A stretch of DNA of 64,000 nucleotides from the NCBI RefSeq assembly GCF_019039255.1, contig NZ_CP077062.1, forward strand, positions 1,674,001-1,738,000. Direction: 5' to 3'. Both the position numbers and the translations under genes were made by a program. The stretch's first letter is position 1, and each line of letters opens with the position of its first letter. The notes beneath the pieces are model-generated. The model searched no databases. It saw only the letters and a program-made list of their open reading frames with translations, and was not told the origin of the DNA. Positions 7,665 through 64,000 of the stretch are shown here, piece after piece. The stretch is from Nocardioides panacis. Lineage in GTDB: Bacteria > Actinomycetota > Actinomycetes > Propionibacteriales > Nocardioidaceae.

Positions 7665-8964
7665 CCGCGGCATCCTCGACGAGCTCGACCGGGTCCTGGA
7701 CGCGCACCTGTTCGCCCCGGCCGACCCGGCCGCGGCCATCCGCCTCGGGATCCGGGCCCGACGACGACGCACGACACGCGTGGCCGTCGGTGCCGCCAGC
7801 GTGCTGGCCGTGGCCGGTGTCCTGACCGCTACCCGACTCTCGACGCCCTCCCCGGGTCAGCCGACCGCGACGTTCGGGAATCCCGGGGGCCGGGTGTCCT
7901 TGGTGGCCGGCGGCGGCCCGCGTGACGGATACCCCGACCTCGTCGTCAGTCGTGAAGGTAAGCAGTGGGTGAGAGTCACCGGGTTCGGTTGGCCGATGAA
8001 GGGGATGGCGCCGGTCAGCTCTGCCGACGGCAGCGTCACGTTTCCGAAGGTGTCCAAGGTCGACGCCGAGACGATGTGCCTGCCGATGCTCAACCAGGGC
8101 GCGCCGGGTGTGCCGGACAGCGCCTGGCGGCATTCGCACGGTTGGGTCGATGAGTTCCCGTCTCGCGTCGGCCTCGTCGCGACGTACGAGGCCAGCTACG
8201 ACGGGCACGTCTACAACGCGGCGTGCACGCTGCCGGGCGACTTCAGTCCGGGCCGTCGCCCGAACCTCGCTCACGTGCCCGCCGCCGGCGACCGTCGAGC
8301 CGTGTTGGAACAGTGCTCCTACCAAGGGCACGTGAACTTCGGCGCCTGGCGGGTCGGCGCCGCGGACCGGGCCGGAGCCACCCTCAGCGCAGCGTTGGTC
8401 TCACCGGACGGCCACGTGGCACGGTGTGCGCTTTCCTCGGACCCACGCCAGCGCGTCACCCAGATCTCCGCGACACCGGTGGCCGCGGCCGAGCCGAGTG
8501 GTCCGTACCTGTACGGCGGCCAGGGGACCGACCATCTCACCCTGGCCGGCGCCGCCGGTGCCGGCGTGGACTTCGTCGCAGTGACCGTGGCCGGCGCGAC
8601 TCGGACCGTGCCGGTGACCGGCGGTGTGTTCGCTGCGGTCGTGCATGTGCCCGGCGGTGCGCCGGGTGAGGACACGGACGTCCGGGCGTTGGGGGCGGAC
8701 GGGCGTGAACTCGGAGTAGTTCGCGCCCAGGCGGACAACCCCCCGAACGACATGCTCATCCCGGTCGAGTGCTTACCTCGGTCGAGACCGGTGACGACGG
8801 CTGCTAGCTGTCGGATCTCGGGAGAAATGCAGCGGAGACTGGCTCCCTCGCGGGGAGCCAGTCTCCTGGTTGCTGGCGGCTGTCAGCGACGGACGACGTG
8901 CACGCAGTCGCCGGCCGCGATGACACGCAGGGTGGTGTCGGAGCCGCGGTACACGAAGCGGTAG
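7657..8964 (+). CDS. Membrane-anchored partner of the SigE-type sigma factor (3' end uncertain)
   Basis: The ORF encodes 435 residues: a cytoplasmic N-terminus (about 1-40), one membrane helix (RVAVGAASVLAVAGVLTA) and a long extracytoplasmic part with scattered cysteines and no recognised domain. This layout, plus the 8-base overlap with the sigma gene, suggests a regulator of that sigma factor, although no zinc-binding anti-sigma motif is seen. The frame reads through a strong hairpin at 8834-8866 and into the opposite end of the secreted-protein gene. The last ~60 residues are therefore doubtful, and an indel has probably removed the true stop near 8780-8830. Confidence 0.7.
   Translation: MSDRGILDELDRVLDAHLFAPADPAAAIRLGIRARRRRTTRVAVGAASVLAVAGVLTATRLSTPSPGQPTATFGNPGGRVSLVAGGGPRDGYPDLVVSREGKQWVRVTGFGWPMKGMAPVSSADGSVTFPKVSKVDAETMCLPMLNQGAPGVPDSAWRHSHGWVDEFPSRVGLVATYEASYDGHVYNAACTLPGDFSPGRRPNLAHVPAAGDRRAVLEQCSYQGHVNFGAWRVGAADRAGATLSAALVSPDGHVARCALSSDPRQRVTQISATPVAAAEPSGPYLYGGQGTDHLTLAGAAGAGVDFVAVTVAGATRTVPVTGGVFAAVVHVPGGAPGEDTDVRALGADGRELGVVRAQADNPPNDMLIPVECLPRSRPVTTAASCRISGEMQRRLAPSRGASLLVAGGCQRRTTCTQSPAAMTRRVVSEPRYTKR
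8834..8866. terminator. Bidirectional hairpin terminator
   Basis: Two 14-base arms (GGAGACTGGCTCCC and its exact complement) enclose a 5-base loop between convergent genes. There is no U-tract on either side, which is common in high-GC actinomycetes. Confidence 0.8.
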
Positions 8965-9788
8965 CAGCGGTCCTCGGGCAGGGCCTTCAGCTTGGTGGTG
9001 AGGTAGCCGTCCCGGTTGCTGCGGACCGTCCGGATGTTGTTGTAGGTGCCGGACAGGGTCCGTCGTTGCAGCACGACCGGTTCGCCGGCGAAGGCGACGT
9101 ATTTGTCGATGTGGGCGCCGGTCGAGAGCCGGTTCGGTGCCATCGCCTGGCGGGTCAGGCGGCCCTTGACGGTCACGGTCGCACCGCGGCGCACCGGTTC
9201 GGGGGAGGCGTTCGTCGTGAGGCGGGAGCCGCGGAACAGCGAGAAGACGGCCTTCGCGGTGAAGGGTGCACCCTTGGTGGTGGTGGAGGTGTCGCCGACC
9301 TTGTAGGTGTTGTACGGCGTGGCGACGATGTCCCACGGTCCGGCACACGCACTGGTCGTGGCCGGGGTGTCGTAGTCGTCGTTGGCCTCGAACGACCAGG
9401 GCTTGCTCAGCGGGTAGTCGTAGACGTCCGGCTGGTCGGTCGCGTTCGGACCGGCGTCGGAGCCGATGTAGTCCGAGGACGTGCGGTCCGCGCAGGCCCG
9501 GGCCTTCTCGCCGACCTGGCCGCTGCGGCGGAACTGGAGCAGCAGGTAGCCCGTCGTGCCGGCGCAGGTGTTCTGCATGGTCACGTGCACCGGTTGGTGG
9601 GTGAAGCCACCCGAGGACGGCAGGAGGGTCACGTCGTCGGCGTGGACCGCGAGCACCCGCGGCGGCGGGTTCGCTGGCGTGCAGTCGGCGGTGGCGCCCT
9701 GGGCCGGTTGCGTGATCGTGGAAAGGGTGGTTGCGGTGGCGATGAGCGCCACTGCCGTTGCTACTGCACGCCGAGTCGTGCGAACCAT
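8883..9788 (-). CDS. Secreted protein of unknown family (copy 1)
   Basis: This is a 301-residue exported protein with an N-terminal signal peptide (Arg-rich start, then ATAVALIATATTLSTI, with probable cleavage after QGA). The mature part has about eight cysteines and a C-terminal beta-rich region. A segment reading PVRRGATVTVKGRLTRQ, followed by KYVAFAGEPVVLQRRT and GYLTTKLKALP, resembles bacterial Ig-like/surface repeat modules that bind or decorate cell-surface polymers. The start is taken at 9788 (MVRTTRRAV) because the paralogue at 52286 begins at the same point and both carry a GAACGGGGGACC leader just before. No enzyme motif is visible and the function is unknown. Confidence 0.8.
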   Translation of the reverse strand: MVRTTRRAVATAVALIATATTLSTITQPAQGATADCTPANPPPRVLAVHADDVTLLPSSGGFTHQPVHVTMQNTCAGTTGYLLLQFRRSGQVGEKARACADRTSSDYIGSDAGPNATDQPDVYDYPLSKPWSFEANDDYDTPATTSACAGPWDIVATPYNTYKVGDTSTTTKGAPFTAKAVFSLFRGSRLTTNASPEPVRRGATVTVKGRLTRQAMAPNRLSTGAHIDKYVAFAGEPVVLQRRTLSGTYNNIRTVRSNRDGYLTTKLKALPEDRCYRFVYRGSDTTLRVIAAGDCVHVVRR

Positions 9789-10112
9789 GGTGGTCCCCCG
9801 TTCTGTTCGCCATGAACCGTACATAGCGGGCCCGTTGACGTCCACCATTTCGAGTGACGGCGGTTACCGGGTCTGCCGAGTTGAGGGGCGGTTACTCTCG
9901 CAGGGGTCTGCCGTGGAACGGCTCGACGATCATGTCGAGACTGGCGAGTCAACTGGGAGTTCGACTGGCTGGACGGGCAGCCTGCGTGGGACGTGTGGAA
10001 AACGACCGCTGCGGAGTCTTCCACGAGTACCGTCTGCTGCACCGCGAGCCGCACACGCCCGCTCGCGTCAGCCGCGTCCGCGGTGAGATGAGCTGAAGCG
10101 GGGGAAGTACGC

Positions 10113-44153: not shown

Positions 44154-44362
44154 CACGCCCCCCGCCTCATCATCAGCACGACCATGCGTCCTCGACCGGC
44201 CAGACCGACGGTCCGGCTGGCCGCTCTGTGCCGAGTCATAACTCATGGTGACGCTCACACATGGAACACCATTGAGCACCGGCGCGTGTTGCAGTCGAAC
44301 AGTAAAACGTTGAGCCGAAGCGGTGGTGGCGGTAGTCAACAGTGCGCTGGCTGAGCGAACTG

Positions 44363-44744
44363 GTGCGCTCCCGATAACGGCTGCCCTTCACCGCGGCGCC
44401 CATTCGGCGGGCCCGTTCATTGCTGGCGCAGGCGTAGCAGGGACGGACGGTTCGACGAACCGGTTCGATCAACCAGTTCGTCAGCGACGGGGTCGCACAG
44501 GGACCTAGGATTCGGCCGGGAGGCTGGTCACGACGGCGGTCCTCGAACCGTCTCGGCCCGTTGGACAACAAGGGGGACCCGTCACCGTGCGGAATGTTGC
44601 GTCACGCCTGCTCACCGCCGTACTGGTCACCGGCCTCGTCGCCACGGTGACGACCGCACCCGGCGTGGCCGCCCCCCGGCTCGTCTCGGCCGCTGTCGCG
44701 GAGCGCGCACCGGCAGGACTGGCCAGCCTACCCGACCGCGAACG
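44363..44744. repeat. Left arm of a ~380-bp inverted repeat
   Basis: Closely similar to the reverse complement of 50883-51257. It covers a non-coding leader and the first ~50 codons of the beta-propeller gene. Long identical stretches include the leader around TCCTCGAACCGTCTCGGCCC and the start GTGCGGAATGTTGCG. Confidence 0.85.
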
Positions 44745-45128: not shown

Positions 45129-47597
45129 TCAGCGGCCGGGACGGATTACCTTCAGGTACTGCGCAAGGTCAACAGCGCGGAGCCGGTGGCCGACGAGCAA
45201 CTGGTTGACCGCCTGCTTGTCGTCCCAGCGAGCGCCGGCCAGCCCTGCGCCCAGGGCGATGAACGCGTCGCGCAGGTCCTTGAGGCCGTTCTCCGTCAGC
45301 GCCCGGGCGTCGGGTGCCGCGGTTGCGTCGTCGGCGAGGCTACGAGCCGGGTGCACCATGACCGGGGTGCCGACGGCGTCCGCACCGTACTTGTCGGTGA
45401 GCCACAGGACGGATCCGCTGAGCTGGTTCGCATCCCGCTTGTGGATCAGGTCCGTCGTGGCGCCGGTCTTGGCCTCGATCACCCAGAACCTCAGTCCGCC
45501 GAGGGCCCAGAGGACGTCGGGGCCAGCGCCCCACTCGTCCTCGGGACGCTGGGCGTTGAAACCGATGTGCAGCGCCAACTGTCGCAGGGCCTCCTCGGCC
45601 TCGTCCGTGCAGTCGGGGTCGAACGCCAGGTCGTCGGCGATGGCCTGGAACCCGAGTCGAAGCTCGCCTCCGGTGCGGTACCGGCCATCCAGGAAGTCCG
45701 CTGCCTGCTGGGCCTGGTCCTCAGAGCCGGACAGGCGTCGGTAGTCGAAGCCGGACAGTGGTCGCAACACCATGGTGTTCTTCCTGCGCGCCGCGCTGAG
45801 CACCTGCTGGGACTCCACCGGGTCGACCAGGTCCAGGTAGGCGGCCTTCTGCTCCAGGAGCCAGCCTTGCTCCCGGTCGGTGGGCAGGGTGGACACGGCC
45901 GCACTGATCAGCTCCGCCGCGGCGCGCGTGTCACCATCGGTGGCCGCCTCGAAGGCGCGCCTGCGGGCGACGGCGGTGTCGGACACGTGACCGGTGGGGG
46001 CGGGCACCGAGCGGAGCTTCGTCTTCGCCAGCTGCACCCAACCCGGGTCGCGGGTGAGTGCCTGCCTGGCCACCGCGATGATCGCGGACAGCTCGGAGCC
46101 GCCCATCCGACCGGCGACATCACGACTCAGCTCGAGCTGCGCCTGTGTGGCGGCGCTGAACCGTGCCCGGGTGCGGGGGTCGGCGACCAGCTGACTGAGC
46201 CGCGACCCGAGCAAGAAGACCACGCAGTGATCCTCGTTGGAACGCACCCCCCGGCCCATGCCCTGCTCGATGCGCTGCACTTGGCGGTCATCGGCGCCGG
46301 CCCGTCGCGCGATCTGCGCTTCGAGTCGCTCATCGCCGGTCTGGACCTCGGGAAGCCCGTCCACGACGAGGATGCGGCAGGCGTTCTCGGGTAGGTCGAC
46401 GCCGTCGTACTTGTTGACCAGCACGACCAGACCAACGTGTCTCGCGCGGAGCTCCTCCACCGTCGCGGCCAGGTTGTCCGCGTTGATGACCCGAGGAGTC
46501 CACTCGTCCCACTCGGCGGCCGCCCGGTAGGACGGAACGAGGACGACCGTGTTGTAGGTCCTCGAGAGCTCGGCGATCTCGGCCCGGGTGTGGTCGACGA
46601 TGATGCTGGGGTTGATCTCCTGGGGCGCCAGGATCATCCGCTCCCCGATGTCGCCCGCGGTCAACGGCGTGATGGGCCGGCGAACGCTGTCGGGGTCGGC
46701 GCCGAAATCGGTGACCAGCACGCTGTCGTCGGCCAGGGTGGCGGTGAGGTAGACGCGGTGGGCCGCCTCCACGAAACCGGTGATGTTGCGGACTGGCGGG
46801 ACGGGCGGGGTGATCGTGAGTTCCCGCCCGGTGAAGACCGCGCGGCACAGCGGCAGCACGTCCTGGACCGCGGGAAGCGCGTAGCGGAGAGGCCCGCTGG
46901 ACTCGTGCTGGTGCAGGATCGCGCGCGCTCGTTCGCACTTTTCACGCCATGCCCAGAACGGAACCCGGGCCAGAGCCGAGTGGGTGTGGGCCCGGATCTG
47001 GAGCAGGGAACTGGGGGAGTGCTCCTCGAGCTCGTCCTGGAAGAGCCTCAGCAGCGGGTCGAAGGCGGGATGAGCGGACGGCAGGGTGATGGAGAGCTGG
47101 GAGCGGCTGGTGGCGATGGCCGCATGTGCGTCGTCGATCACCACGGCCCCGATCGGTGCGGGGGCGCGGGTCGGACGGGTGGCGGCAAAGACGGAGCGGC
47201 CGTTGAACAGCTTGTCCGCGGTCACCACCGCGATCGCATCGCCGGAGAGGTAGCGGTGGTGGTCCGGGTCGTCGATCGTCTCGATGCCCAGGTGGGTCGC
47301 CTCCTCGCGCACCTGCTCGACCAGGTACCGGCTCGGGCACACGTAGAGGGCCGGGCGCACACCGGCGTTCAGATAGCTCTGCAGGATCACCAGACCGTCG
47401 ATGGTCTTGCCACCGCCGGTGTTCACCTTGACCACGAGGTCGCGTTCGCCGCGCCGGGCGTCCCAGGCCGTGAGAACTTGGGCCTGGACGTCACGCAGAT
47501 AGCCGTACCCCTGCGTCTTGCTGAGCGAAGCCCAGAGCTCTCGTGGTTCCGTGGGCGCGGCCTGGGCTTGTTGGGAGAGGAGTTGGTCGAAGTCCAT
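45129..47597 (-). CDS. SF2 DEAD/DEAH-type helicase fused to a PD-(D/E)XK nuclease domain
   Basis: This is an 822-residue protein. The helicase core shows Walker A NTGGGKTIDG, motif II VVIDDAHA, motif III-like YLTATLAD, motif V-like VNKYDGVDLPE and motif VI RIEQGMGRGVRSNED, so both RecA domains are complete. About residues 510-680 form a helical region. The C-terminus has GPDVLWALGG then FWVIEAKTGATT, the PD..ExK nuclease pattern, followed by a conserved-looking NQLSGSVLWL helix. An ATP-driven nuclease that acts on foreign DNA is the natural reading; similar fusions are found in phage-defence islands. It is monocistronic and lies inside an inverted-repeat cassette with a secreted protein. The ATG at 47597 (MDFDQLLSQ) is a clear start. 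Confidence 0.85.
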   Translation of the reverse strand: MDFDQLLSQQAQAAPTEPRELWASLSKTQGYGYLRDVQAQVLTAWDARRGERDLVVKVNTGGGKTIDGLVILQSYLNAGVRPALYVCPSRYLVEQVREEATHLGIETIDDPDHHRYLSGDAIAVVTADKLFNGRSVFAATRPTRAPAPIGAVVIDDAHAAIATSRSQLSITLPSAHPAFDPLLRLFQDELEEHSPSSLLQIRAHTHSALARVPFWAWREKCERARAILHQHESSGPLRYALPAVQDVLPLCRAVFTGRELTITPPVPPVRNITGFVEAAHRVYLTATLADDSVLVTDFGADPDSVRRPITPLTAGDIGERMILAPQEINPSIIVDHTRAEIAELSRTYNTVVLVPSYRAAAEWDEWTPRVINADNLAATVEELRARHVGLVVLVNKYDGVDLPENACRILVVDGLPEVQTGDERLEAQIARRAGADDRQVQRIEQGMGRGVRSNEDHCVVFLLGSRLSQLVADPRTRARFSAATQAQLELSRDVAGRMGGSELSAIIAVARQALTRDPGWVQLAKTKLRSVPAPTGHVSDTAVARRRAFEAATDGDTRAAAELISAAVSTLPTDREQGWLLEQKAAYLDLVDPVESQQVLSAARRKNTMVLRPLSGFDYRRLSGSEDQAQQAADFLDGRYRTGGELRLGFQAIADDLAFDPDCTDEAEEALRQLALHIGFNAQRPEDEWGAGPDVLWALGGLRFWVIEAKTGATTDLIHKRDANQLSGSVLWLTDKYGADAVGTPVMVHPARSLADDATAAPDARALTENGLKDLRDAFIALGAGLAGARWDDKQAVNQLLVGHRLRAVDLAQYLKVIRPGR

Positions 47598-47904
47598 GGG
47601 GCGGTCACGGCTCCAGTCACGGGATGGTCAGGTTGCCCGGAGTGGGCCGAAGGGCGTCAACGCTAGTCGGCGGACAGCCCGTTACCAAGACCATTTGCCC
47701 CGTTCCGTCGCGGCCCTGCGGGCCGGAAACGTTCCGGCGGCGGTCCGCTGTGGACGAGGAGCACCGGTGGGAGGCCGGTGGGGCGCCGGTCCGGACATTT
47801 CAGGGGTCAACGCAGACCGGGTACCGCGACCGGCGGGAGTGTCGGGGTCTTCTGAGATGCCGCACCCCAAGAGCCCGGCTCTTGGGGTGCGGCCACACCG
47901 GAGT
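47598..47904. other. Gene-free 0.3 kb with a terminator
   Basis: No gene is seen. The interval lies between the helicase start and the stop of the propeller-protein gene, so it must contain the helicase promoter on the minus strand, which I cannot pinpoint. Confidence 0.4.
47861..47891 (-). terminator. Rho-independent-type hairpin
   Basis: Perfect arms GCACCCCAAGAG and CTCTTGGGGTGC with a 5-base loop lie just past the stop of the propeller-protein gene. Confidence 0.8.
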
Positions 47905-50900
47905 TCAGGTTCGACGGAGGAGCAGGCCGTCGACGCGGACCGGGGCGGCGCTGGTGGTCCGGAGCGTCACCCTTCCGGTCCACACGGCCGTCTGCAGGGG
48001 GAGGTATCTCAGCTGCTTGGTCTGGGTGCGTGTGGAGGTCAGGCGGACGGTGCCGAGGTACCGGGTGCCGATGTAGACCTTGACCGATCCGCAGTTCCGG
48101 CAGGTCGTGGCCAGCACGCCGATCCGGCGGGCCTGCACCGAGGTCTTCGTGGCCAGGCTCACTCCCTTGCGAGCGGCGACTGTTTCGGTGCCCGCGAGCT
48201 GGGTGGAGCCGCGGGAGCGTCGCCACCCGGCTGAGGCGGTCAGCGACCGGTCGTCGAGCGGACGGCCGACGCACTGTTCGAGGTAGGACGAGTAGAGACC
48301 GGACTGGTCGCGGGCTCGCACCCGGACGCACGTCTCGGCGCCGAGGGCGAGCGGTGAGGACAGGTTCGACCGGATGTCGCTCGGCGCCCATCCGGCCGGG
48401 AGCCGGTAGCCGGTGAAGGTGGTCGTCGGTGTCGCGGTGCGCACGGAGACGTCGAAGAAGTCGGTGCCACTGCCGGCGTCGGTCGCGTTCCAGCTGAACG
48501 GGGCCCGCCCGGCGAGCGCGTCGGTGGCGGTCGGCGGGCGCAGCTGCAGAGCGGGGGCGACGGTGTCGGAGGAGACCACGAACGAGTTCGTCGTGGTCCG
48601 ACCTGTCTCGTCGGTAACTCGGACGTACAGCGTGTGCCGGCCCTCGGGCAGCGCGGGCAGGCTGGCGGCGCCCAGGCAGCCGAACCACGCGCCGTCGTCG
48701 AGGCGGCACTCGGGGCGCAGGACGAAGTCCGGGGTCGCGCCGTAGTCACCGGCGACCACCGTGAACGACACCGGCCCGCGCAGGAACTGCGGCAGGCCAC
48801 GCGCGTCTACCCACGGCGGGGTCTGGTCGCCGAGCAGTCCGGTGGGGTCGCCGGCGACGGCGAGGCGGCTGGTCAGGGTGGGGTCGTTCTCGCCGGTGCT
48901 GGTCCGGGTGACGGTCGTGAACAGGGTTCCGTACCGGCTGTAGGACGGCGCGGACAGGGCCCGGTCACGGTCCGGTGTGCTCAGCACCGTCGGGTTGGTC
49001 TGCCCGGCGGCGATCTGCATGACCTGCCCGGTGGAGGCGACGTAGGCGAGGTTGCCGTCCCGGGAGATCTCCGGGTCCGTCCCGCCGGCCGTCCCGGCGA
49101 CCGCGGAAACTGTTCCGGTGTCCGGGTTGATCCGCAGCAGGGGCGCGCCGGTGGTCGAGGCGTCCTGGACGACGACGGCGGTTCCGTCCGCGGTCCAGGT
49201 GGGCGACGCTGCGTTGTCACGCAGCAGGGTGGGTGTGCCTCCGCCGGCTGGGATGGTCCATACGGACCGGTGTCCGGCGACGGTTTGGGTGAACGCGATC
49301 CGGTCGGCGCCGGGTGAGTAGTCCGCGTCGGTCTCCGCCCCGGTCATCGAGGTGAGCTGGCGGGTCGCGGGCTGGGACGGTGTGCCGCCCCACAGGTCGT
49401 ACTCGCCGTCCGAGCCGTCCGGTCCGGTGCTCCGGGAAGCGACGAGGTGGCCTCCGCCCGGTGAGGTGGCCGGGTACCGGTAGTCGTGGTCGGGGTCTTG
49501 GGTCAGCGGCACCACGGGTGCGTACCAGGCCCAGAACGAGTCCGCGACCTGGAAGAGTCCGCGCGGGCTGCCCTTGGTCCGGCTGCCAGACACGATGACG
49601 GCCCGGTCGGAGGTGGCGAGGTCGGCGCTGTCGAGCACGGTCCACGGGCCGGTCCCGGCGGCGTTGGTCGCCCGGACCCGGTAGGTGTAGTAGGTGCCGG
49701 CGACGGTCGTCCGGTCGACGTACGACGGCCGCCAGTAGTCCTCGTCGGCCGGGACGGAGCCGACCGGCGCCCACGCGCCGCCGCGCGGCATCCGTTCGAT
49801 GTCGTAGGAGGTGATGGTCTCGCCTCCGTCGTCGGCGGGCCGGTTCCAGTACGGCAGCATCGCCTCCACGCCGGGGACCGTCGTGCCGGACAACGGGCCG
49901 GGCGCGACGGTGCCGAACCCGTCCAGGAGGACGGTGACCGGCGCGAGGCTGCCGCCGTCGTCGCGGGCGACCACCTCGAGGGCGGCGGTACGGGTGCCGG
50001 CGGTGGTCGGGGTGAACCGGGTGGTGACCGGGCAGGTGGCACCCGGGGCCAGGGTGGTGTTGGCGCAGCCGTTCGTGACGACCGTCCAGTCCGTCGCGGC
50101 CGGACCTTGGGTGCTCGCCGCCGCCAGGGTCAGGGTCTCCGGGCCGGGGTTGTTGATGGTGACGGTGCGGGTCAACGGGGCCGCCGCGTACGTGCGCAGC
50201 GGCCCGACTGAGGCGGGGGTGGTCGTCGGGAGCGTCACCGCGGTGTCCGCGCCGAGCCGGACCTCCATGCGGACGACCTGCCCGTACTTGCAGCGACCCG
50301 TCCAGCTGGCGTCCAGCACGACGGGGTGAGCGGTGTCGTCGTAGAGCACGGACCGCACAGCGAGGACGCGGTCGACGAACCCGCCGCACGGTCCGCCGAA
50401 GTCGCTGAAGTACGCGTCGCCGCCCGCGTCCTTGCCGGAGAACCGGTAGGTGCCGGGGCCCGGGAGCGGGGACAGGTACAGCTGTGCCATGGTGCCGTCC
50501 GCGGTGGTCGCGGTCACGGCGGGGTAACCGCTCGCGGCGCTGGTGACGGTCGCGCCGTCGACCCCGTCGCGGACGGTCGCGGCCGACGGCGCGGTGGTGC
50601 TCGACCGGTATGCCATCAGCCGTTGAGCGCCCTGGACCGGCACGGAGGTCGGTCGGGTCGCTTCGGTCTGCGCTGCGGGGCCGTCCACGCCGTCACGGAT
50701 GGGGGTGACCCGGTAGGTCACGTGCTCGCCGGGAGCGACGTCGTGGTCGCCGTAGGCGTAGTGCCAGGTGGAGAAGTTGCGCGGCAGCGTGACGAGCTCG
50801 GTCCACCCGCCGGCGTCGCGGTGCCGCTCCAGGCGGTAGCGGTCCGCTTCAGGCCGGGAGTCGTCCCACGAGACGCCGAGGCCGTTCGCGGTCGGGTAGG

Positions 50901-51039
50901 TGGCCAGCCCTGCCGGGGCGCCCTCCGCGAGAGCGGCCGAGACGAGCCGGGGGGCGGCCACACCTGGTGCGCTGGTCACCGTGGCGACGATGCCGGCGAC
51001 CAGCACGGCGGTGAGCAGGCGTGACGCAACATTCCGCAC
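47905..51039 (-). CDS. Large secreted FN3/beta-propeller protein
   Basis: This is a 1044-residue exported protein. The signal peptide (RLLTAVLVAGIVATVTSAPG) precedes an FN3-like domain (about 45-130: LGVSWDDSRPEADRYRLERH, then THVTYRVTP-like strands). A beta-sandwich with NNPGPETLTLAAA and TTRFTPTTAGTRTAALEV resembles choice-of-anchor D. A second FN3 domain lies around 395-480 (MLPYWNRPADDGGETITSYDIERM). TolB/PD40-like propeller blades follow (DADYSPGADRIAFTQT, SPTWTADGTAVVVQD). Two C-terminal beta-sandwich modules end in LRTTSAAPVRVDGLLLRR. The start is GTG 51039. Such proteins sit on the cell surface and bind polymers or partners; no enzyme site is seen. Its 5' end is duplicated at 44590. 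Confidence 0.8.
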   Translation of the reverse strand: MRNVASRLLTAVLVAGIVATVTSAPGVAAPRLVSAALAEGAPAGLATYPTANGLGVSWDDSRPEADRYRLERHRDAGGWTELVTLPRNFSTWHYAYGDHDVAPGEHVTYRVTPIRDGVDGPAAQTEATRPTSVPVQGAQRLMAYRSSTTAPSAATVRDGVDGATVTSAASGYPAVTATTADGTMAQLYLSPLPGPGTYRFSGKDAGGDAYFSDFGGPCGGFVDRVLAVRSVLYDDTAHPVVLDASWTGRCKYGQVVRMEVRLGADTAVTLPTTTPASVGPLRTYAAAPLTRTVTINNPGPETLTLAAASTQGPAATDWTVVTNGCANTTLAPGATCPVTTRFTPTTAGTRTAALEVVARDDGGSLAPVTVLLDGFGTVAPGPLSGTTVPGVEAMLPYWNRPADDGGETITSYDIERMPRGGAWAPVGSVPADEDYWRPSYVDRTTVAGTYYTYRVRATNAAGTGPWTVLDSADLATSDRAVIVSGSRTKGSPRGLFQVADSFWAWYAPVVPLTQDPDHDYRYPATSPGGGHLVASRSTGPDGSDGEYDLWGGTPSQPATRQLTSMTGAETDADYSPGADRIAFTQTVAGHRSVWTIPAGGGTPTLLRDNAASPTWTADGTAVVVQDASTTGAPLLRINPDTGTVSAVAGTAGGTDPEISRDGNLAYVASTGQVMQIAAGQTNPTVLSTPDRDRALSAPSYSRYGTLFTTVTRTSTGENDPTLTSRLAVAGDPTGLLGDQTPPWVDARGLPQFLRGPVSFTVVAGDYGATPDFVLRPECRLDDGAWFGCLGAASLPALPEGRHTLYVRVTDETGRTTTNSFVVSSDTVAPALQLRPPTATDALAGRAPFSWNATDAGSGTDFFDVSVRTATPTTTFTGYRLPAGWAPSDIRSNLSSPLALGAETCVRVRARDQSGLYSSYLEQCVGRPLDDRSLTASAGWRRSRGSTQLAGTETVAARKGVSLATKTSVQARRIGVLATTCRNCGSVKVYIGTRYLGTVRLTSTRTQTKQLRYLPLQTAVWTGRVTLRTTSAAPVRVDGLLLRRT

Positions 51040-51257
51040 GGTGACGGGTCCCCCTTGTTGTCCGACGGGCCGAGACGGTTCGAGGACCGCCGTCGTGACC
51101 AGCCTCCCGCCGAATCCTAGGTCCGGTGCCGACTCGTCGTTGAAGAACTGGTGGGCGAGTCGGTTCGTTGAGACTGTCCGTCCCTATTACGGCTGCGCCA
51201 GCAATGAGCGCGCCCGTCGACTGGGCCCCGCGAGGGAGGGCTGCCGTCGTCGGGACA
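50883..51257. repeat. Right arm of the ~380-bp inverted repeat
   Basis: Closely similar to the reverse complement of 44363-44744. It contains the leader and 5' end of the propeller-protein gene. The two arms enclose about 6.1 kb. Confidence 0.85.
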
Positions 51258-51408
51258 CGCCAGTCCGTATACCCGTCGCACCGGCCGACGTGGCGGCTAT
51301 CCCTCGCGTTGACGCAGCGCACGCAGACTGCGGTCGCCTATGCTCGCTGGCGCGGACCTGGCGACTCGACGACACCGGCGAGGGTCTGGCCGCCAAGGGG
51401 GAGGTTCC

Positions 51409-52193: not shown

Positions 52194-52285
52194 CCTGCAG
52201 ATCCGGTACCCGCCGGCACTGGAAATGCTGGACGTCGTGCGGTCCGTTACGTACGGTTCATGACGAACAGAACGGGGGACCCACC

Positions 52286-53185
52286 GTGATTCGCACGACT
52301 CGGCGTGCAGTAGCAGCGGCCACGGCGCTCATCGCCACCGCCACCACCTTGTCCGCGATGACGCGACCGGCCGAAGGAGCCACCGCCGACTGCACCCCGG
52401 CGGACCCGCCGCCCCGGGTGCTGTCGGTCCAATCCGACGACGTGACGCTCCTGCCGTCCTCGCGTGGCTTCACCGACCAGCCGGTGCACGTGACCGTGCA
52501 GAGCGCCTGCGGTGGCTCGTCGAGCTACCTGCAGCTCCGGTTCCGCCGCAGCGGTCAGGTCGGCGAGAAGGGGCGGGCCTGCGCGGTCAGCACGTCGTCT
52601 GACTACATCGACTCCGGTGCCGGGCCGGTCGCGACCAGCCAGCCGGACGTCTACGACCACCCGCTGAGCAAGCCGTGGTCGTTCGACGCGAACGACGACT
52701 ACGGCACCCCGGCGACGACGAGTGCGTGTGCCGGGCCGTGGGACATCGTTGCGACCCCGTACAACACCTTCAAGATGGGCGACACCTCCACCACCACCAA
52801 GGGTGCACCGTTCACCGCGAAGGCCGTCTTCTCGTTCTTCCGCGGCTCCCGACTCACGACGAACGTTTCCCCCGAGCCGGTGCGCCGCGGCGCGACCGTG
52901 ACCGTCAAGGGCCGCCTGACACGACAGGCGATGGCGCCGGACCGGCTCTCGACCGGCGCCCGGGACAAGTACATCGCCTTCGCTGGCGAGCCGGTCGGCC
53001 TGCAGCGACGGACCCTGTCCGGGACGTACAACAACATCCGGACGGTCCGCAGCAACCGGGACGGCTACCTCACCACCAAGCTGAAGGCGCTGCCCGAGGA
53101 CCGCTGCTACCGCTGGGTCTACCGGGGCTCCGACACCACCCTGCGCGTCACAGCCGGCGGCGACTGCATCCACGTCCGCCGCTGA
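52286..53185 (+). CDS. Secreted protein of unknown family (copy 2)
   Basis: This is a 299-residue paralogue of the protein at 8883-9788, colinear throughout: signal peptide, conserved Cys positions, SGQVGEK, DVYDHPLSKPWSFDANDDYG, PVRRGATVTVKGRLTRQ and GYLTTKLKALPEDRCYR. It differs from copy 1 by a two-residue deletion (TGARDKYI versus TGAHIDKYV) and scattered substitutions. The GTG at 52286 follows a GAACGGGGGACCCACC leader that is also conserved with copy 1, so the duplication included the promoter. Both copies appear intact, so both are probably expressed. Confidence 0.8.
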   Translation: MIRTTRRAVAAATALIATATTLSAMTRPAEGATADCTPADPPPRVLSVQSDDVTLLPSSRGFTDQPVHVTVQSACGGSSSYLQLRFRRSGQVGEKGRACAVSTSSDYIDSGAGPVATSQPDVYDHPLSKPWSFDANDDYGTPATTSACAGPWDIVATPYNTFKMGDTSTTTKGAPFTAKAVFSFFRGSRLTTNVSPEPVRRGATVTVKGRLTRQAMAPDRLSTGARDKYIAFAGEPVGLQRRTLSGTYNNIRTVRSNRDGYLTTKLKALPEDRCYRWVYRGSDTTLRVTAGGDCIHVRR

Positions 53186-53289
53186 CGGCACACCCATGTG
53201 CGAGAACATTGTCGCGTTGTCCGCTCATCGGCATGTCCGTACGCGTGGACAGCGATCAGGGATCCGGGACGGGTCTCTAGGCTGCAGTG

Positions 53290-55780: not shown

Positions 55781-57152
55781 TCAGGCAGTCGATCGGACCG
55801 GGTGGCGCCAGCACGTCTGACCTGCCTCGGGGACCCGGTTCCGGCAGGGACCCTTGGGGGTGGGCTCCCCGCAGCGATGTACAAGCACCGGGGCCACGGT
55901 GCCGTTCGTGTCGCTGGAGTCCTCGGTAGTTGCCGGACCACGGGCGTCGGGCCGTTCCAGCAGCGGGGCCCGGGTACGTGGCCCTGCCTCCGCTCCGAAC
56001 GACAGCAGCGTCAGCAGGTCGTCGGCCTGATACAACGGCGTCCTGCGGTATTTGCCCGTCGCGGGGGTGAGGACGTCGATGTTCTGCAGCTGATGGACGA
56101 GCTGCTGCGCGCGTCGCGGGGACACCTCGAGCTGTCCCGCCAGGAACGTCGTCGACACCACGGGGTTCTCGGCGACGACGTCGAGCGCACGGTGCAGCGA
56201 CGCGTCGCCACGCACGCCGTCGAGCGCCCCTCGCCACCGATCGAGCAGGGCGATGGCGGCGTCAGCGAACGTCCCCGCGGCCACGGTGGCCGACTCGACG
56301 TAGGCCAGGAACCGGCTGACGTAGTCGTTCAGCGCCGCTAGGCGGTCGTCTCCGGTGTACCGGTACTGGGTCAGTGCCTCGACGTATCCGGGCACGTCGT
56401 TTCGCAAGGCCGTGGAGAGTGGGATGACGCCGTCGTCGATGAGGCCGGCGCGCCTGAGGACGCCGTGGACCAGCGCTCGTCCGACGCGACCGTTGCCGTC
56501 CTCGAATGGGTGGATCGTCTCGAACTGCGCGTGGACGACCGCGGCCAGAACCAGCGGTAGGTCACCTGAGGTGTTCGCGTAGGTGAGCAGATCCTCCACG
56601 TAGGCGTGCACGGCGGCCCCGGGGGGTGCCGCGTAGTCGGCGTTGAGCTTGTTGGTGCCCCCCGATCCAGACCTGCTCGCGGCGATAGCCCTCCTGGTGC
56701 CACGGGAGGAGCGTCTGGTGGATGGTCCACAAGTGCTCGTGCTTCCACTGGCCGGCGCCCAGTACGTCGATCGCATCTTTCATCGCGGCGACGTTCCGCA
56801 CGATCTGGCTGGCGGCGTGCGGCGCTGCCTCCGCGTAGACCTGCGCCACCGCGACGTCTCGAGGAGTCGCACGGATGCCCTCGATCCACGACGACGAGAT
56901 CGACTCGGAGCGCAGCGCGGTCGAGTACAGCGCCGGCAGCGGGTTCGCCCGCAGACGACCGCCGAGGCGAGCAACCGCCGTCGAGACCTCCGCTGCCTGC
57001 TCCAACGTGGCTCCCGACAGCGCGTTCGACACGTCCGCGAGCAGGTCCGGGTGGTACCGCAGGTAGCTGCCGCCCTGCCGCTCGGCACGGCTCAGGCCAG
57101 CGAAGTCGGCTGCGACTTGCACCCTCTCCCAGTGAGCCACGGTAACCACCAT
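55781..57152 (-). CDS. fic: Fic family protein with C-terminal zinc-ribbon-like tail (frameshifted)
   Basis: This is a ~456-residue Fic AMP-transferase-type protein. The N-terminal region has the inhibitory helix SSWIEG ((S/T)xxxE(G/N)), so it is a class II, self-inhibited Fic. The catalytic loop HPFEDGNGRVGRAL is fully conserved. A winged-helix-like region (VSTTFLAGQLEVSPRRAQQLVHQL, then TGKYRRTPLYQ) follows. The C-terminus has CGEPTPKGPC..GQTCWRH, a Cys/His set like small zinc-ribbon tails (DUF5763-type). A C6 run at 56658-56663 (plus strand) has one extra base; five would join the halves (VWIGGTNKLNADY). The start at 57152 lies 8 bases from a perfect palindrome, which is presumably its own operator. 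Confidence 0.85.
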
Positions 57153-60191: not shown

Positions 60192-61191
60192 GTGACGCAG
60201 CTGGCCAGCTACTTCACGGAGGCGCTGAGCAACATCGAGCCGGGTGACGACGCCAGGAACGCGAAGTCCGCTCACGAGGAGGTGCGTGCGACCCTGCTGA
60301 AGTCCACGGACCTGACCGACTTGGGGATCGACCCTGTGCTGATTGGCTCCTACAAGCGGCACGTCTCGATCCGCCGGGTGAAGGACGTCGACGTCTTCGG
60401 CAGGTTGAAAGATGCCGACTCGGACCTGGCGCCCGGTGCGGCGCTCGACCTCTTCGAGAAGGCGCTCGAGGTGGATTTCGCCGGCCGCATCGAACCCCAG
60501 GCCCGATCGTTCAAGATCGACTTCCCCGACGAAGAGCTCACCGTCGACGTTGTCCCGGCCCGTCCGTCGGGCAACCACTGGGAGATTCCGAAGAAGGAAG
60601 CCCAGGACAAGAGGGCCGGCTGGCTGGCCACGAACCCGCTTCAGTTCAACGAGCTGACCACCGCGGCCAACGCCGAGTTCCTGCTGAACGACAAGGGAAT
60701 TTACGTCCCGACCGTGGAAGCTCGTGCGTCAGGTGCGCCGCAACTACCTGCGCGACGCACATCCCGGCGGCTTCTTCTTCGAGGTGATGACCTATTGGGC
60801 GTTTGTCGACGGCGCCCCGAAGGAGACCAGCCAGGCCGCATACCTGGTGTTCGCTCTCGAGCAGATCGTCGAGACACTCGTCCAGGTGGCGGAGAACGGC
60901 CTGGCCGACCCCACCTTGCCGGACAAGATCATCAGCACGCGCGCCGACGCCGCCGATCTGGAGCACGCGACGGCCCGGCTCACGGAGGCCCGCGACCTGG
61001 CCGCCGAGGCGTTGCGCGATGAGGACGACTGCGCCTCTGCGCTCAAGTGGCAGGAGCTGCTCGGCCTGACGACCGAGGACGAGGAGGTCTTTCCCCTCCC
61101 GGAGTACTGCAACCCGGACGGGTCGACCAAGAAGTCGGATGCGCTGCCGGGGGCGTTGGTCTCGCCCGCGGGGACCGGCCGCTACGCCTGA
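60192..61191 (+). CDS. CBASS CD-NTase (SMODS-type cyclic-oligonucleotide synthase), frameshifted
   Basis: This is a 332-residue (after repair) nucleotidyltransferase that makes cyclic di- or oligonucleotide signals when phage is sensed. The polymerase-beta-like core shows GSYKRHVSI (GS motif), KDVDVFGRL (first two Asp metal ligands) and ELTVDVVPARP (third Asp). The helical C-terminal domain follows (VRQVRRNYLRDA, FFFEVMTYWAFVDG, AYLVFALEQIVETL, ending GTGRYA). One extra G near 60716 (GTGGAAG for GTGAAG) breaks the frame. The GTG at 60192 is preceded by GAGGGGGACC. The short C-terminal tail may be the site conjugated by Cap2. It is followed two bases later by cap2. The clade and product cannot be told from sequence alone. 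Confidence 0.85.
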
Positions 61192-61193
61192 TC

Positions 61194-62772
61194 GTGACCT
61201 TTCAGTTGCCGGGAGACATCGCCCTGCTCCGCGCTGGCCTGCGGCAGGGTCTGGCTGGACTGGGTTTCGCCGATGACGGCGTGCTGCTGCGTGGCCCCGT
61301 GAACTGGAGCGTCCGGGACGGAGAGCCAGCGGTCGCCACCGTCGACATCGAGCTCGATGAACGTTTCCCGTTCGCTCCACCGGTCCTCCGCGTACACGAC
61401 GTTGGGGCGGATGTCCCTCTCACCTGGCACATCGAGCCCGGCGGGGCGCTGTGCCTGTGGGACCGCGCCGACTCGACGCCCGCGGATTGGAGCACTGCCC
61501 GCGCGGTCGTGGCACGGGTTCAAGGCTGGCTGGAGAAGACGGCGGCCGGATGGCCAGACGACAACGACTGCGATCTGGAGCGTTACATCCCCGGCACCCA
61601 AGACCCGGTCCTGGTGCTCTGCGATCTCGTGGAGCTCGGCGACGTCACTGGCTGCGTACAGGTGCTGCCCACCGGCCGCGGAGTGGTGCGCGTCAGCCCG
61701 GAGCAGCGCCCGGTCCCCCCCGAAGACCCGCAAGGGGCGCCGGCGACCGAGGAGCGGGAGCCTGGGGTGGGTCGCGAATGTGGGTGAGCTCGCGCAGCCG
61801 ATCGTCGGGTGGACCGACGTGGCCGCCCTTCTCGATCCAGTGGACACCATCGCGCTCCTCCGTCTGGTGCATGAACACGGTCTGCGGCACCTGCTGCTGC
61901 GCTACACGCGATCAGGTACCCCGGGAACTCTGGCCCTCGTGCTCGAGGCAGCGGGGAACGCCCCAGGAGCCCGGCAGGCAAGCCCACGGGTGCGAAGTTC
62001 GCCGACGGCCGACACCAGCGTGGCCGCGCGAAGACTTCGATCCGGCGTGGGCGCGCCTGAACTCGCGTCATTTCGAGTCGCCATCGTCGGATGCGGTGCG
62101 GTGGGGTCCGCCATGGTGGACCTGCTCTTCCGCAACGGCGTGACCCGGCAGATCCTTCTCGACCCCGACCGGCTGCGACCGGGCAACGTGATCCGGCACC
62201 TCGCGGACGACCGCCACGTGGGTCTGCACAAGGTCCACGCAACCCGCCAACGACTGGGGGAGGTCGGCCTGGTCGTCGATGACGTCGACGCCCGGGTGGA
62301 CGCCATCGGCAGCCCCGGTTCCGCGCTCCTGCTGATGGACGAGGTCGACGCAGTGGTCGATGCGACCGGCGACGAATGGACCACCGCGCTGCTCCGCTGG
62401 GCGGCAGAGTCGACCCAGACCACCGTCGTGTCCGCCGCCGTACAAAGGGAAGGTGGGATCGCCCGCGCTGATCGTTTCCCCGCGCCCGTCGGCGACTACC
62501 TTCCCTCGGTACCTCTCCGCACCGATCTTCCGGCTCCCGGGCGTGAACATGGATGCGGCGACGCCGTGTCGAACACGCCACCCTCCGCGGTCGTCGCCGC
62601 CGCCACTCTGGGGGTGGAGCTCCTGCTGGCCGGGCTCTCCGGCGTTTCGGCGACGCCGGCCTCGCTTCTGCGGGTGCTGCAACCGCAACCCGATGCGCCC
62701 TACGACCGCCTGACGATGCTCACCTCGCCGCCAGCCGCACAGGACCCTCCGGTGACGGGTGCACCTCGGTGA
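61194..62772 (+). CDS. cap2: Cap2, E2-E1 fusion of the CBASS ubiquitin-like system (frameshifted)
   Basis: This is a 526-residue (after repair) fusion. The E2-like domain (residues 1-150) has the strand order FPFAPPVLRV and the active-site Cys in IEPGGALCLWDR. The C-terminal E1-like ThiF domain has the ATP loop VAIVGCGAVGSAMV, DPDRLRPGNVIRH, the adenylation pocket ATGDEWTTALL and a catalytic Cys candidate in REHGCGDAVS. Cap2 proteins conjugate the C-terminus of the CD-NTase to targets to prime it. A C7 run at 61715-61721 has one extra base; with six Cs the E2 and E1 parts join as ..RPVPPKTRKG..GSLGWVANVG. The GTG at 61194 follows the CD-NTase stop by two bases. It is an operon with cap3 and cap4. 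Confidence 0.85.
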
Positions 62773-62781
62773 GGACCAGTC

Positions 62782-63264
62782 ATGGCTGACCGCGGAGCGG
62801 CCGGCGGCCCCTTGCGCGTCGCGATCACGGGTCCGGCCCTGAGCGAGATGCGCGACCAGGATCGGGCCGCGAATGACACCGAGATCGGTGGTCTGCTTCT
62901 CGGTTGGTGGGCCCCCGGCACGATCATCGTGCGGCACGCAATCGTGGTCCGCGACCCTCGCTCGACCGGCACGTCGTGGACGCGGCGGCCGCGGCAGTCC
63001 CGTCGTGCGTTGGCGGATGCTCTCGCGATATTCGAGCATCCATTGCTCGGCTACGTCGGGGACTGGCACTGCCACCCACAGGTCTGCGCTGCCAGCGACC
63101 GAGATCTCGCGTCGCTGCAGCGCACCTCACGGCAGTACCGCTCTCCACTCGCCTTGATCGTGTCCCTGCCCGACGGCACCTGCGACACCAGGGCCGCCCA
63201 AGACGGCATGCTGGTCCCCGTGACCACGGATGATCGACCTGTCCTCGCAGCCGGGGACGCGTGA
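62782..63264 (+). CDS. cap3: Cap3, JAB/MPN metalloprotease of the CBASS system
   Basis: This is a 160-residue JAMM-type isopeptidase that, in type II CBASS, removes the CD-NTase from its conjugates. The zinc motif is complete: the Glu in NDTEIGGLLLGW, HxHP in GDWHCHPQV, and Ser/Asp in ASDRDLASLQ. The ATG at 62782 lies 9 bases after the cap2 stop, and the cap4 start follows its stop by one base, so the genes form a tight operon. Its length is typical of Cap3. Confidence 0.85.
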   Translation: MADRGAAGGPLRVAITGPALSEMRDQDRAANDTEIGGLLLGWWAPGTIIVRHAIVVRDPRSTGTSWTRRPRQSRRALADALAIFEHPLLGYVGDWHCHPQVCAASDRDLASLQRTSRQYRSPLALIVSLPDGTCDTRAAQDGMLVPVTTDDRPVLAAGDA

Positions 63265-63265
63265 C

Positions 63266-64000
63266 ATGGCACTTCCGGCACGGGCGGCCGCGTTGCGCGG
63301 CGACGACCTCCAGCATGCTGTGGGCTGGTACTGGGCGGTCTGCGCCTACCAGGACCCGGAGATCACCTCCGTCAGCATCGAAGACCGCGACGGGGGGTCC
63401 TTTGACGACGTGGTGGTGAGGAGGGTCAGCACGGCGCATCGGCTGTTGCAGGTCAAGAACTCGAACTTCGGCGGCACGTTGATCGACGACAAGTGGCTGC
63501 TCGCCACTTCGTCGTCGTCCGAGAGGGCGCGCAGCCCGCTGCAGCACTTCTTTGACACCTGGAAGGCGTGGCGCGACTCGGGGGAGCCCTTCGACCTCGA
63601 ACTGCTGAGCACCCGCGGGTTCGACCCAGCGCACCAGATCCTCGGCGAGCACAGGGATCTCCTGACTCACCAGGTCGATGTGCAGAGAATCCTCGATGCC
63701 AGCGGCGCCAGTCGGCTGGGAAAGGCGCGGCTGCTGTGGCAGGAGCACCTCAACATCAGCGCGTTCGAGCTGGTCGCGTTCTTGTCCGCCGTTCGCTTCC
63801 GGTACGCCGGCAACGAGAACGACTGGGACGAGAAGAGCGCCCTGCGGATGCAGCTCAACGGGCTTAGACACGACCGCGAGGCGCTCACGATGGGCCGCGC
63901 CCTGGTCAGGAACTGGGTGAAGCTCGGGTCGGGCGAGCAGTCCCGCGACGAGATTAGAGCCCAGATTCACGAGAGCCGCCTTCAGGCGACCGACGCCGTC
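63266..64000 (+). CDS. cap4: Cap4-like effector, DUF4297 nuclease N-terminus (partial, runs off the window)
   Basis: The frame starts at ATG 63266 (MALPARAAALRGDDLQHAVG) and remains open to the end of the window, 245 codons. Residues ~37-70 carry the DUF4297 endonuclease motif: ITSVSIEDRDGGSFDDVVVR followed by HRLLQVKNS, i.e. Glu/Asp..Asp..QxK. The rest is helical (LIDDKWLLATSSSS, HFFDTWKAWRDSG, LVAFLSAVRFRYAG). In Cap4 effectors this nuclease is followed by a SAVED domain that binds the cyclic oligonucleotide and triggers DNA degradation; that part would lie beyond 64000. As the fourth gene of the operon it is most likely the effector. Confidence 0.75.
   Translation, partial: MALPARAAALRGDDLQHAVGWYWAVCAYQDPEITSVSIEDRDGGSFDDVVVRRVSTAHRLLQVKNSNFGGTLIDDKWLLATSSSSERARSPLQHFFDTWKAWRDSGEPFDLELLSTRGFDPAHQILGEHRDLLTHQVDVQRILDASGASRLGKARLLWQEHLNISAFELVAFLSAVRFRYAGNENDWDEKSALRMQLNGLRHDREALTMGRALVRNWVKLGSGEQSRDEIRAQIHESRLQATDAV

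Follow-up and report, generated by a model that had tools for sequence, protein, structure and literature searches.

A probable Hna anti-phage gene, intact and in a defence neighbourhood of the actinobacterium Nocardioides panacis

Gene content of the hna locus

The window analysed here (64,000 nucleotides, positions 1,674,001 to 1,738,000 of contig NZ_CP077062.1 of Nocardioides panacis) carries on its minus strand, at 45129-47597, a complete gene of 822 aa with an ATG start and no internal stop, which is referred to below as the hna homologue. The encoded protein contains the motifs NTGGGKT (residues 59-65), DDAH (155-158), QGMGRGVRS (445-453), GPD (692-694), and EAK (708-710). Two Pfam models match above cut-offs, ResIII/DEAD at residues 34-164 and Helicase_C_2, a DinG/XPD-type second domain, at residues 378-482. 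The C-terminal nuclease domain is matched by no Pfam model, and the region is covered by a solved homologue. An earlier note on this DNA had read an SF2 helicase core and a C-terminal PD..ExK nuclease in one protein, and both the positions of the motifs and the solved homologue bear this out. The features of the locus are the following.

44340..44743, plus strand: left arm of the inverted repeat, a truncated duplicate of the 1044-aa gene's 5′ end
45129..47597, minus strand: hna homologue, 822 aa, complete (matches to PADLOC PDC-S28 and PDB 10UJ/9YKJ/9YHN)
45318..45617, minus strand: C-terminal PD-(D/E)XK nuclease core, residues about 661-760 (P693, D694, E708, K710)
46152..46466, minus strand: HEL2, DinG/XPD-type C-terminal helicase domain, residues 378-482 (Pfam Helicase_C_2, YDGVDLP, QGMGRGVRS)
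47088..47496, minus strand: HEL1, SF2 N-terminal helicase domain, residues about 34-170 (R35/Q38, Walker A NTGGGKT, DDAH)
47859..47893, minus strand: long G+C-rich hairpin seen in the sequence, downstream of the 1044-aa gene and upstream of hna
50884..51290, minus strand: right arm of the inverted repeat, where the 1044-aa gene has its upstream region and signal peptide
55781-56776, minus strand: SoFic-type Fic protein, a stand-alone defence gene match (E 1e-46)
60192-64000, running to about 64735 in the genome: type II CBASS operon (CD-NTase, E1-E2, JAB, SAVED-PDDEXK effector)
60192-61191: CBASS cyclase (CD-NTase)
61357-62772: CBASS E1-E2
62782-63264: CBASS JAB
From 63230, extending beyond the window end: CBASS SAVED-PDDEXK effector
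Genome C1:1738783-1740957 (L068:7784-9958), just past the window end, minus strand: PDC-S65 candidate, 724 aa (598 bits)

The third-position codon composition of the hna homologue is typical of the window. The G+C-rich hairpin and a gap of about 300 nt suggest that the gene may be transcribed on its own; a consensus scan found no promoter and no T-tailed terminator. A single cysteine (C87) lies between the Walker A motif and DDAH, with no four-cysteine cluster, and the protein is therefore predicted to lack an Fe-S cluster of the XPD/DinG type. An AlphaFold2 model computed from an alignment of 7 sequences was of poor quality (mean pLDDT, 52; pTM, 0.32) and was given no weight.

An imperfect inverted repeat flanks the gene, with arms at about 44340-44743 and 50884-51290 and a core of 209 nt at 94%. 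Both arms are the duplicated 5′ end (upstream region and signal-peptide start) of the gene for the 1044-aa secreted protein, and recombination between them could invert hna and this neighbour while the secreted gene still kept a start. A scan of ten genes across 39.7-55.7 kb turned up no transposase or integrase domain, and no empty insertion site was found in the genomes of the genus because neither the flanks nor the 1044-aa neighbour is conserved there. Of the repeat-bounded cassette previously described, the repeats are thus real and inverted, whereas a mobile cassette is unproven, since the arms duplicate the 5′ end of a single gene and neither a mobility gene nor an empty site came to light.

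The direct neighbours of hna encode the 1044-aa secreted Fn3-type protein, a sigma factor, and an SDR enzyme, none of them a defence gene. A defence cluster starts 8 kb away, and the Fic gene, the CBASS operon, and the PDC-S65 candidate all lie within 8-20 kb. The match of the CBASS cyclase to its model is split between two neighbouring segments that lie in different frames (model positions 1-175, then 178-334); the break, near 60716-60724, could reflect a pseudogene, a frameshift, or an error in sequencing. The 724-aa PDC-S65 protein also has weaker similarity to SIR2-type Argonaute-associated proteins. Separately, a gene for a 299-aa secreted protein at window positions 52197-53190 has two more copies in the genome at 85-91% DNA identity, at C1:1682879-1683876 (window about 8879-9876) and C1:2138643-2139429.

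Homology to Hna and distribution of the family

The PADLOC model PDC-S28 matches the protein with 958 bits (E 1.3e-288) over residues 1-814. A phmmer search against solved structures returned as the only full-length relative the 845-aa chain of PDB entries 9YHN, 9YKJ, and 10UJ (395 bits; E 5e-117; residues 2-774). Entries 10UJ and 9YKJ are cryo-EM structures of the monomer and the dimer, respectively, of Hna from Sinorhizobium meliloti (PMC13381803). The S. meliloti Hna sequence, taken from the structure-match alignment, itself scores 975 bits on PDC-S28, and PDC-S28 and Hna are therefore one family. Identity between the N. panacis and S. meliloti proteins is 30.5% across 768 aligned residues. 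According to the account of Sather et al. 2023 given in PMC12445080, a single megaplasmid gene of S. meliloti, hna, restores complete resistance against phages of diverse kinds; the resistance is described as abortive infection (Sather et al. 2023 via PMC12445080; PMC13381803).

The N. panacis gene is, with high confidence, an intact actinobacterial Hna, that is, a single-gene abortive-infection anti-phage system. Full-length homology, the presence of all catalytic residues, an intact frame, an accessory distribution, and a defence-rich context were all observed here; activity, trigger, and outcome in the N. panacis host would follow by analogy with S. meliloti Hna. Three points weigh against this reading: the low identity to the studied Hna, the changed dimer-interface residues described below, and the lack of defence genes immediately beside hna. 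The proposal of the earlier note that a single-gene helicase-nuclease acts here in phage defence is strongly supported. The system is not uncharacterised, as that note had supposed, but has a homologue with published phage resistance and a family model already in PADLOC (PDC-S28); the gene is new only as a further intact member.

The gene is single-copy in the N. panacis genome and is present in one of seven genomes of the genus. Among the genomes sampled, 5 of 295 in the family and 9 of 294 in the order gave strong full-length matches. The nearest relatives, at 51-57% identity, come mostly from Microbacteriaceae, another family in the same phylum, while the forms found in members of its own family share 40-44% identity. 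This patchy spread, with the nearest relatives in another family, is that of an accessory gene which spreads horizontally, and it fits the literature. It also bears on whether the protein could be a DinG/YoaA-type helicase with a housekeeping role in DNA repair and a nuclease attached. HEL2 is weakly similar to DinG/YoaA models, and Hna is structurally similar to DinG-like proteins, although it has no Fe-S cluster (PMC13381803). However, those models score only 15-17 bits against NCBIfam equivalog cut-offs of 548-789, the gene is missing from 6 of the 7 genus genomes, the Fe-S cysteines are absent, and homologues are located with defence genes, so that a housekeeping role is highly improbable.

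S. meliloti Hna sits on a long branch in the tree, and its exact place among the actinobacterial forms is unsure. A separate actinobacterial helicase-nuclease clade (loci L013-L016 and L026-L033), with 24-28% identity to the N. panacis protein, is set apart with 100% support and best fits a second PADLOC PDC-S28 model, PDLC04987. Its members share with the N. panacis protein the domain order, DDAH, YDGxDLP, and, in nearly all cases, the ExK nuclease motif; they differ in the HEL2 motif QGxGRxTRx and in a D-xx-W nuclease motif that lacks the GP of GPDxxW. In Planctomonas psychrotolerans, a close hna homologue (L007:9998-12468) beside DISARM genes is split in two frames, which probably reflects either a broken copy or an error in sequencing.

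Genomic context around the homologues fits a defence role for hna. Homologues in genomes G235 and G189 lie about 100 bp from a pAgo/SIR2 pair, a type I restriction gene is 4.5 kb away from those in G189 and G186, and the DISARM gene drmA lies within about 10 kb of the L007 copy. Other neighbours include AbiLi, RmrA, HEC-05, type II and III methyltransferases, and PD-T4-6. These tallies are a description and not a statistical test of defence-island enrichment. The earlier note had named beforehand two findings that would speak against defence, homologues placed mainly beside repair or housekeeping genes and a C-terminal domain without a nuclease fold; what we found is that homologues adjoin defence genes and that the C-terminal domain matches the PD-(D/E)XK nuclease of the solved structure.

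The same neighbourhoods indicate a protein that acts alone. No partner gene adjoins the N. panacis gene, no methyltransferase was seen near it among the neighbours scanned (top 25 families listed), in agreement with the earlier note, and the neighbours of homologues are varied, with no constant partner apparent. These observations weigh on the possibility that the gene supplies the nuclease half of a system whose partner is missing, be it restriction-modification, Hachiman-like, or CRISPR type IV (CasDinG). A helicase joined to a PD-(D/E)XK domain is common in such systems, and the PADLOC CasDinG model (typeIV_DinG) scores 52 bits on the helicase part; yet PDC-S28 scores 958 bits, and no HamA or HamB match to the protein was found. 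We consider a lost partner scarcely credible. Type I/III restriction-modification was rejected as a candidate on the lack of a methyltransferase among the scanned neighbours, and Hachiman (HamAB) on the lack of a HamA or HamB model match and on the union of helicase and nuclease in one chain.

Conservation of catalytic residues and of the dimer loop

Residues were compared across 17 aligned sequences, which were 15 homologues together with S. meliloti Hna and the N. panacis protein. P693, D694, E708, and K710 of the nuclease correspond to P712, D713, E727, and K729 of Hna and are present in all 16 aligned homologues that cover the site; the Hna substitutions K729A and P712A/D713A/E727A abolish or lower nuclease activity (PMC13381803). 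The ATP-coordinating residues R36/Q39 of Hna, whose replacement (R36A/Q39A) leads to loss of ATPase and gain of nuclease activity (PMC13381803), correspond to R35/Q38, and the Walker A motif, the DEAH-type box, and motif VI are also present. Q38, K64, D155, D156, H158, R449, and R452 occur in 17 of 17 sequences and R35 in 16 of 17. The nuclease and ATPase residues being kept, catalysis is very probably conserved in the N. panacis protein. This chemistry, invariant in the residues compared, marks the parts of the published Hna mechanism that carry over.

The split L007 homologue and the broken cyclase of the nearby CBASS operon might suggest that the N. panacis gene is an inactive relic. The frame is intact, however, the catalytic residues are all kept, and the third positions of its codons are as elsewhere in the window, which makes decay very unlikely.

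The loop that holds the published dimer together presents a different pattern. In S. meliloti Hna, ATP binding drives an auto-inhibited dimer by way of a HEL1 loop, and DNA unwinding was not observed (PMC13381803). The dimer is broken, and the nuclease activated, by a phage SSB; the T30A/D31A/P34A substitutions break the dimer as well (PMC13381803). These three residues correspond to Q29, G30, and Y33 in the N. panacis protein, and none of T30, D31, and P34 is found at its position there or in any of the 15 other aligned homologues. The N. panacis protein and its near relatives have a common pattern, GYGYLRD, in place of the published loop residues. The positions align without gaps but lie within an unstructured loop. 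The published restraint and SSB-sensing interface is not conserved in sequence among the homologues sampled, and the absence of these residues means that sensing or restraint may differ. For the N. panacis protein, the chemistry is on firmer ground than the restraint and the trigger, because the dimer-interface residues are not conserved.

One tentative reading is that the N. panacis protein is an Hna-family enzyme with the same nuclease but another restraint or trigger: the dimer might form through a different contact, or something besides a T7 gp2.5-like SSB might act as the trigger. The replaced loop residues, their absence from the 15 other homologues, and the shared GYGYLRD pattern point this way, as does the published expectation that Hna orthologues vary in recognition (PMC13381803). 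Against it, loop residues can drift while a contact is kept, the positions, though ungapped, fall in an unstructured loop, and the dimer was solved at only 4.4 Å (PMC13381803). That actinobacterial Hna proteins, including that of N. panacis, keep nuclease and ATPase, lack the HEL1 dimer-loop residues, and differ from S. meliloti Hna in contact or phage trigger is possible, though doubtful. The remaining interest of the locus is narrow and lies in this auto-inhibition and SSB-sensing loop, whose lack of conservation across the sampled Hna proteins makes the generality of the published model directly testable; Hna is in addition now placed in an actinobacterial defence neighbourhood.

Proposed mechanism and comparison with known systems

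The mechanism of the N. panacis protein is most likely that of Hna, carried over from the S. meliloti protein. The helicase core would bind ATP in the healthy cell and keep the enzyme inactive, probably as a dimer. A phage factor, of which the single-stranded-DNA-binding protein is the known example, would release the enzyme, and the freed PD-(D/E)XK domain would digest single-stranded DNA in the 3′-5′ direction, so that the cell would die or stall ahead of phage production, the outcome of abortive infection. ATP would serve to restrain the nuclease and not to drive it. The earlier description of the protein as an ATP-dependent nuclease is probably wrong, as ATP inhibits the nuclease of the studied Hna, for which no unwinding was seen (PMC13381803).

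Hachiman also has a helicase that restrains a nuclease in defence (PMC12278908), but it consists of two proteins, whereas the N. panacis protein is one chain. ExoDinG and CasDinG share the DinG/XPD-type HEL2, and ExoDinG is likewise a 3′-5′ exonuclease (PMC12345164); unlike the N. panacis protein, which matches them weakly, ExoDinG carries an N-terminal exonuclease domain. The closest counterpart is S. meliloti Hna, which is similar in length (845 versus 822 aa), is encoded by a single gene, has the same domain order of HEL1, HEL2, helical linker, and NUC, keeps all of the mutated catalytic residues, and has no Fe-S cysteines. The two differ in their 30.5% identity, in the change of T30/D31/P34 to Q/G/Y in the N. 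panacis protein, and in their genomic home, a symbiotic megaplasmid in S. meliloti and a high-GC actinobacterial chromosome in N. panacis.
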